Below are positions 16,312 through 17,809 of a stretch of DNA of 35,825 bases, in pieces. Source of the DNA: Gammaproteobacteria bacterium (GTDB lineage: Bacteria > Pseudomonadota > Gammaproteobacteria > Steroidobacterales > Steroidobacteraceae). The notes beneath the pieces are model-generated. The model worked only from the letters and a program-made list of their open reading frames with translations. It was not told the origin of the DNA and did not search any database. Location: positions 80,264 through 116,088 of the forward strand of contig PLAH01000195.1 in the NCBI GenBank assembly GCA_003134045.1. The letters run 5' to 3'. Made by a program: the position numbers and the translations under genes. The stretch's first letter is position 1; each line of letters starts with the position of its first letter.

Positions 16312-16524
16312 ATGGACATCGGCTGGAGCGAGTTGGGGCGTTACCTGGGCGGTGCTTTCGCCTTATATTTGGTGCTGGAAGGAATATTGCCGTTCCTGAA
16401 TCCGAGTGCGGCGCAGCGTTTGATGGCGAAATTGGCTCAGACCGAGACGAAACAACTGCGGTGGGGCGGACTCATCAGCATGATGGCCGGTCTCGCACTG
16501 CTCTGGATGGCGCGCAATGGGTAA
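16312..16524 (+). CDS. DUF2065 (YjeT-like) small inner-membrane protein
   Basis: A 70-aa protein with two hydrophobic helices ([20 protein letters not shown] and [18 protein letters not shown]) around a basic loop ([10 protein letters not shown]), as in E. coli YjeT of the DUF2065 family. The ATG at 16312 is preferred; a GTG at 16309 precedes it directly. Genes of this family sit between hflC and purA in many gammaproteobacteria, as here, and it overlaps purA by 8 nt. Its role is unknown. Membership in the hfl operon suggests, by inference only, a membrane-quality-control link. Confidence 0.88.
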
Positions 16525-17686
16525 GAATCTCGTCGTGATCGGCTTGCAGTGGGGCGACGAAGGAAAGGGCAAAGTCGTCGATTTGCTGACCGATCAAGTG
16601 CAGGCGGTAGTGCGCTTCCAGGGCGGCCACAATGCCGGGCACACGCTGGTGATCGGCGGCAAGAAAACCATCCTGTCGCTGATACCCTCCGGCATCCTGC
16701 ACGCGCACGTGCAGTGCCTGATCGGCAACGGCGTGGTGCTGTCGCTCGCGGCTCTGTTCAAGGAAGCGGAGATGCTGATCGGGCAGGGAGTGCCGGTGTT
16801 CGAACGGCTGAGAGTCAGTCCGTCCTGTCCGCTGATTCTGGCCTCGCACGTGGCACTGGATCTGGCCCGCGAAAAGGCCCAGGGCGCGAACGCGATCGGC
16901 ACCACGGGACGCGGCATTGGCCCGGCCTACGAGGACAAGGTCGCGCGGCGCGCGCTGCGCGTGGCGGACCTGTTCCACCGCGAGCGTTTCGCCGCCAAGC
17001 TCGGCGAGATTCTGGATTATCACAATTTCATTCTGCAGCGCTATTTCAACGCCTCGCCCATCGACTTCCAGCAGGTGCTGGAGTCGAACCTGGAACTCGG
17101 CGAGCGCTTGAAGCCGCTGGTGGCGGATGTCACGGGCATCCTCGAGAACTTGAGCGTCAACGGCGGCAATGTCCTGTTCGAGGGCGCCCAAGGAGCGATG
17201 CTCGACGTCGATCTCGGCACGTATCCGTATGTCACATCGTCGACCACGACGGCCGGCGGGGCCGCCGCCGGCACGGGCTTGGGGCCGCGGCGGCTGCACG
17301 AGGTGCTCGGCATCGTGAAGGCCTATGCGACCCGCGTCGGCGCGGGTCCGTTCCCGACCGAATTGTTCGACGAGTTCGGCGAGCATTTGTCCCGCGTCGG
17401 ACATGAGTTCGGTTCGGTGACCGGCCGGCGCCGCCGTTGCGGCTGGTTCGATGCGGTGGCTCTGCGGCGTTCCATCGTGCACAGCAGCTGCTCCTCCCTG
17501 TGCGTGACCAAGCTCGACGTGCTCGACGGCTTGGATACGATTCGAACCTGCGTCGGCTACAGGATCGACGGCGAGATCGTCATCAACCCGCCGCTCCTGT
17601 CCGAGCATTTCGGCGACTGCGAAGCGGTATACGAGGAGCATCCGGGTTGGAAAGACAGCAGCGTGGGGATCACGCGCTACGAGTAG
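16517..17686 (+). CDS. purA: Adenylosuccinate synthetase, interrupted by in-frame amber codon
   Basis: First step from IMP to AMP: GTP-dependent ligation of aspartate to IMP. Codons 1-389 carry the family signatures [13 protein letters not shown] (phosphate loop with catalytic Asp13), GGHNAGHT (His41), [29 protein letters not shown] and [23 protein letters not shown] and the guanine-binding TKLDVLDGL follow. The frame then meets TAG at 17684-17686, about 40 residues short of the usual 430. The missing C-terminus continues in frame downstream (next entry). A product ending here lacks STGPD, which helps bind GTP, and would probably be inactive. The start at ATG 16517 overlaps DUF2065. The amber could be a real nonsense mutation, a read-through codon or a sequence error; purA is normally needed unless adenine is supplied. 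Confidence 0.93.
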
Positions 17687-17809
17687 CTTCCCGCCAACGC
17701 TCGAAGTTATCTCGAGCGTCTGCAGGCCTTGGTGGGCGTGCCGATCGACATCGTTTCCACCGGGCCCGATCGCGACCAGACCATCATCCGCCACAACCCC
17801 TTCGGCTGA
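17687..17809 (+). pseudogene. purA: In-frame C-terminal continuation of purA after the amber codon
   Basis: Directly after TAG 17684-17686, the same frame reads [19 protein letters not shown], then [20 protein letters not shown] and TGA at 17807-17809. This is the conserved PurA C-terminus, ending as E. coli PurA does with STGPDR and a PF-x ending. Read through, the protein is 430 aa, against 432 in E. coli. No start codon or ribosome-binding site suggests separate translation. Confidence 0.9.

Follow-up and report, generated by a model that had tools for sequence, protein, structure and literature searches.

A lone TAG within the frame of an otherwise intact and constrained purA of a gammaproteobacterial genome assembly

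The interruption of a conserved reading frame by TAG can be compared with a small number of described systems. Classical amber suppression involves a suppressor tRNA with the anticodon CTA, while the sense reassignment of TAG, or its use for pyrrolysine, places the codon within conserved frames. The purA gene (adenylosuccinate synthetase) described here resembles the former in that a full-length PurA would be encoded across a TAG, but differs in that the CTA anticodon is found in none of the 38 tRNAs recovered from the genome. It resembles the latter in the presence of a TAG within a conserved frame, but here RF1 is intact and TAG is a common terminator. In the portions of Belinky et al. (2021; PMC7918605) available, in-frame stops are described as widespread in bacteria, subject to purifying selection, and mostly short-lived, with a focus on stops common to two or more species, which limits artefacts. 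The present gene is like the cases described in those portions in having a single in-frame stop, in being still under purifying selection, and in the short life of the stop in comparison with its relatives, and unlike them in that the stop was found in a single genome and interrupts a housekeeping gene present once in the assembly. At best, then, it is one more case of the isolated in-frame stops of bacteria.

The window, that is, the whole stretch of DNA analysed (35,825 nucleotides, bases 80264–116088 of contig C79), contains an HflK-like gene (14290–15426) and, as the second Band-7 gene, a probable hflC (15423–16298), upstream of purA, which occupies positions 16517–17809 of the plus strand. 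From the ATG at 16517, the open part runs for 389 codons to an in-frame TAG (16517–17686, with the TAG at 17684–17686), and the 40 conserved codons that follow, which include STGPDR, extend to the TGA at 17807–17809 (17687–17809). The sequence thus bears out the description in the earlier note of a TAG at codon 390 followed by a preserved C-terminus, and its comparison of a 430-residue read-through product with 432 residues in Escherichia coli also holds, given that the frame comes to 430 residues if the TAG position is counted, and that the solved PurA chain 1kjx, which we take to be that of E. coli, has 432. The absence of other decay was likewise upheld by the PF00709 profile, which matches the whole frame (573.1 bits, model positions 1–416 of 416) in a single frame with one TAG inside and no sign of a second lesion, although the gene, interrupted at codon 390, lacks the one uninterrupted frame expected of PurA. 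A search with the 389 residues ahead of the TAG finds solved PurA structures (1kjx, E 3.8e-156), and one with the 40-residue tail by itself still finds 12 distinct PurA sequences with solved structures (best match 1ade, residues 391–429, E 7e-13), which indicates that the tail is genuine purA sequence, rather than a chance open frame.

The comparison with relatives places this stop in a single genome. PurA was found in 38 of 40 genomes (its own included), with an internal stop in the present copy only, and none of the class-wide PurA matches listed, from a search in which 345 of 369 genomes were matched, contains one. The alignment of codon 390 across close relatives, which the earlier note had proposed, shows a sense codon in all 21 of the same-genus genes that cover the site (Asp in nine, Glu in five, Ala in four, Asn in two, and Lys in one), with a 22nd relative left out because its contig ends before this codon, and 13 further loci of the same family or order have Ala, Asp, Glu, Lys, Leu, or Arg in the column. 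Judged from the aligned sequences, the column is free to vary, and the TAG would strike no fixed residue, but would take away the conserved tail. Relatives devoid of the downstream segment, which would have spoken against the reading of an interrupted gene, were not encountered in the genus, where all 21 genes that cover the site carry the tail, one of them reaching its contig end within it. That the 389-residue protein is an active PurA by itself, with a dispensable tail, would accord with the N-terminal QWGDEGKG and TKLD stretches kept in the open part, for which roles in nucleotide binding are presumed, but is hardly credible for a tail that is conserved throughout the genus, that matches the solved structures, and that carries the STGPDR loop, which presumably contacts the guanine of GTP. 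The accessible parts of the literature on the PurA C-terminus held nothing usable on this loop.

The tail has also evolved under the usual constraint. The best DNA match to the gene (83% identity) is that of the sister genome G018, with a protein identity of 91.2% (91.6% in a second relative, G008). Over the 40 codons of the tail, three nonsynonymous and 13 synonymous differences separate it from G018 (dN 0.035, dS 0.61), with values of 0.06 and 0.83, respectively, over the head. Dividing the dN of the tail by that of the head gives a median of 1.82 for the 21 pairs that include the interrupted gene and 1.80 for the 210 other pairs of the genus. The relaxation of constraint that would follow a lesion in a pseudogene is thus not seen, the two sets of pairs being alike, and only one residue of the tail is unique to this genome among the genus members compared. 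This unbroken constraint implies that the TAG is either very young or not real, and that translation of the tail either continues or ceased very recently. Among the origins offered in the earlier note (a recent lesion, suppression, or a sequence error), the first and the last are favoured by the constrained tail and the sense codons of the relatives, while suppression gained no positive support.

In the assembled consensus, the TAG is a nonsense difference at a single position of a purA that is intact and constrained elsewhere. It would have arisen either through a wrong base in the metagenome consensus or through the assembler's choice of a minor strain's allele. A consensus error or minor allele is, on balance, the explanation to be preferred, in which case most of the living population would likely lack the TAG, as, we infer, would most reads. 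This preference draws on the occurrence of a sole purA in the assembly, the only interrupted copy among the 38, on the sense codons of the genus, and on the near-equal tail ratios and the one private residue. It draws also on the assembly itself (5.5 Mb, 96.77% complete), which comprises 197 contigs with 6.32% contamination, and has short runs of N in seven of the 25 stretches sampled from it, not all of which are necessarily assembly gaps. Among named genome contigs, the window is nearest to those of unclassified Gammaproteobacteria MAGs, although its own record was perhaps excluded, and the assembly is very probably a metagenome bin.

A genuine nonsense mutation that arose very recently predicts identical sequence data, which counts against a consensus error or minor allele. 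Such a transient allele would cut PurA to 389 residues, its carriers being sustained by slight readthrough of the TAG, by adenine salvage, or by both, until the allele is lost or reverts, and it is a possible, if less probable, explanation. The clean single change, with no decay around the TAG, is compatible with it, as is the widespread and short-lived nature of bacterial in-frame stops in the portions of Belinky et al. (PMC7918605) cited above. PurA is, however, the usual enzyme for the conversion of IMP to adenylosuccinate. The second copy envisaged in the earlier note as a backup did not emerge from the assembly, in which the PF00709 profile gave one PurA match and the DNA of the gene matched a single place. 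Adenine salvage, put forward in the same context, is possible in part, since one apt-like frame (C41:885–1334, 147.6 bits) could serve it, but this match lies under the family cut-off of 185.85 bits.

A real allele might also be in keeping with the state of the adjacent region, where most of a neighbouring gene is missing. What persists beside purA (17873–17992, plus strand) is a remnant of a kumamolisin-type peptidase gene, amounting to its final ~40 codons and 77.5% identical to residues 621–660 of a 660-residue frame in G018, which contains a Pro-kumamolisin activation domain, while the remnant itself has no Pfam match. A 70-base junction (~17812–17882), located 126–196 bases from the TAG, separates purA from this remnant, whereas the matching flanks of G018 lie ~5 kb apart, and the region beyond the remnant is syntenic with that genome. 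In two other relatives (G003 and G010), a related peptidase frame starts just after purA. The junction includes a short tandem repeat with a 10-bp unit directly after purA (17822–17849, plus strand), from which an 18-bp pattern was derived that matches, among 270 loci, only the purA locus (entered twice, as L031 and L062). The loss of most of the peptidase gene may be either a deletion or a skip in the assembly, and is probably an event separate from the TAG of purA. The RNA fold of the stretch after purA is not unusual (z 0.18).

Similar stops are scattered elsewhere in the genome. In searches with four families, which count stops only within the matched domain and leave those in the rest of the protein invisible, 185 matches contained two TAGs and one TAA, all in the TonB-receptor barrel (three of 64 matches), with none in ABC_tran (0/70), ACR_tran (0/36), or AMP-binding (0/15), that is, in 121 matches and ~39,000 codons. 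The TAA, on contig C116, lies in a frame that looks degenerate, while each of the TAGs is alone in a frame that is otherwise whole. The first of these TAGs (L225:4553, minus strand, contig C65) occupies a column with Asp or Glu in 25 of 27 aligned paralogues of the same genome (Asp 13, Glu 12, Gly 1, Val 1), and the second (L223:5748, plus strand, contig C27), 83 codons before the end, a column with Phe in three of nine such paralogues, His in two, Leu in two, and Ala and Pro in one each. Given these unlike residues, the two TAGs do not represent one amino acid, and the pattern is as would be left by random errors or mutations, which favours a consensus error or minor allele in purA as well, as does the fact that 51.5% of the stop-making single changes in this genome yield TAG. 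The absence of stops from the 121 matches of the other three families counts against an error, in that the consensus is not generally bad.

In the control genomes, an internal stop was found in one of 63 TonB-receptor barrels of G018, again a TAG, and in none of 25 in G010. The G018 frame with its lone TAG (L270, G018:C30:19666, plus strand) was considered as a counterpart of the interrupted receptors and rejected, being a different protein, with 22–24% identity to both. An excess of TAG was also considered as a sign of recoding, but two TAGs and one TAA here, with one TAG in G018, are unremarkable at the rate of 51.5%. Clean stops amount to one per ~32,600 codons over ~65,000 codons (the ABC part being approximate), from which ~0.33 lone stops would be expected in a window assumed to hold 10,700 coding codons, with a probability of 0.28 of at least one. 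The absence of stops from the ~39,000 codons outside the receptors suggests that stops may interrupt housekeeping genes less often than this base rate implies.

The reading of the TAG as an amino acid, through an amber-suppressing tRNA or efficient readthrough, would yield a full-length PurA and account for the fully constrained tail, the many residues tolerated at the codon-390 column, and the two receptors with lone TAGs. It is, nevertheless, unlikely, given the intact RF1 (prfA, 511.6 bits against a cut-off of 423.25, with no stop; the model also matches a second open frame, probably RF2) and the use of TAG as the terminator of 103 of the 382 non-overlapping frames that reach 250 codons or more in sampled stretches of the genome. 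The stop-free matches of the three families, the unlike residues at the receptor TAGs, and the occurrence of a lone-TAG receptor frame for a different protein in the sister genome also argue against suppression, as does the RNA fold 3' of the purA TAG, which gave no sign of a recoding hairpin (z -1.16). Genome-wide reassignment of TAG was rejected on the grounds of the intact RF1, the frequent termination at TAG, and the scarcity of internal TAGs.

All 38 of the tRNA matches above the Rfam cut-off were typed with ARAGORN, and the search for the CTA anticodon suggested in the earlier note returned none, from a set that lacks seven species expected in a genome, namely the tRNAs for Met, Tyr, Gln(TTG), Gly(TCC), Leu(TAA), Ser(GGA), and Thr(GGT), despite the completeness of 96.77%. 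The set is thus incomplete, and the zero count is not final, since a mutant tRNA could hide among the missing species. A lineage-wide version, in which an amber-suppressing tRNA encoded in an unassembled stretch would keep TAG as a sense codon in several genes, including purA and the two receptors, although most genes that use TAG would still have it as their terminator, is very doubtful.

A consensus error or minor allele therefore ranks first, followed by a real nonsense allele, then by suppression or readthrough, and finally by an active truncated enzyme. An erroneous TAG would caution against deducing physiology, such as auxotrophy or recoding, from a single codon in an environmental assembly, and a TAG that is real and fixed in a single-copy housekeeping gene would open natural suppression or dependence on salvage to direct tests in the genus.

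A reference-free scan of 885,825 bases of the same genome found 73 stops flanked by coding-like frames, and recovered the stop of purA, those of the two lone-TAG receptors, and the TAA on contig C116; three of the scanned stretches (L223–L225) had been chosen because of these stops. Most of the other stops, judged by eye, appear to be the ends of neighbouring genes or shadow frames. The comparison of contig C79 with G018 (46 non-overlapping matches, 40 at an identity of at least 45%, 14,068 residues) gave stops in five of the 40, that is, in purA and in four low-scoring frames (79–269 bits), which were tentatively taken for shadow frames. In the reference-free scan, a TGA also breaks a transporter-like frame at L228:15080 (plus strand). 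On contig C52 (~13250–20040, minus strand), RND transporter matches occur in pieces, seemingly in different frames (near 13512 and 17285), which look to be those of a frameshifted gene, through either real decay or indel errors.
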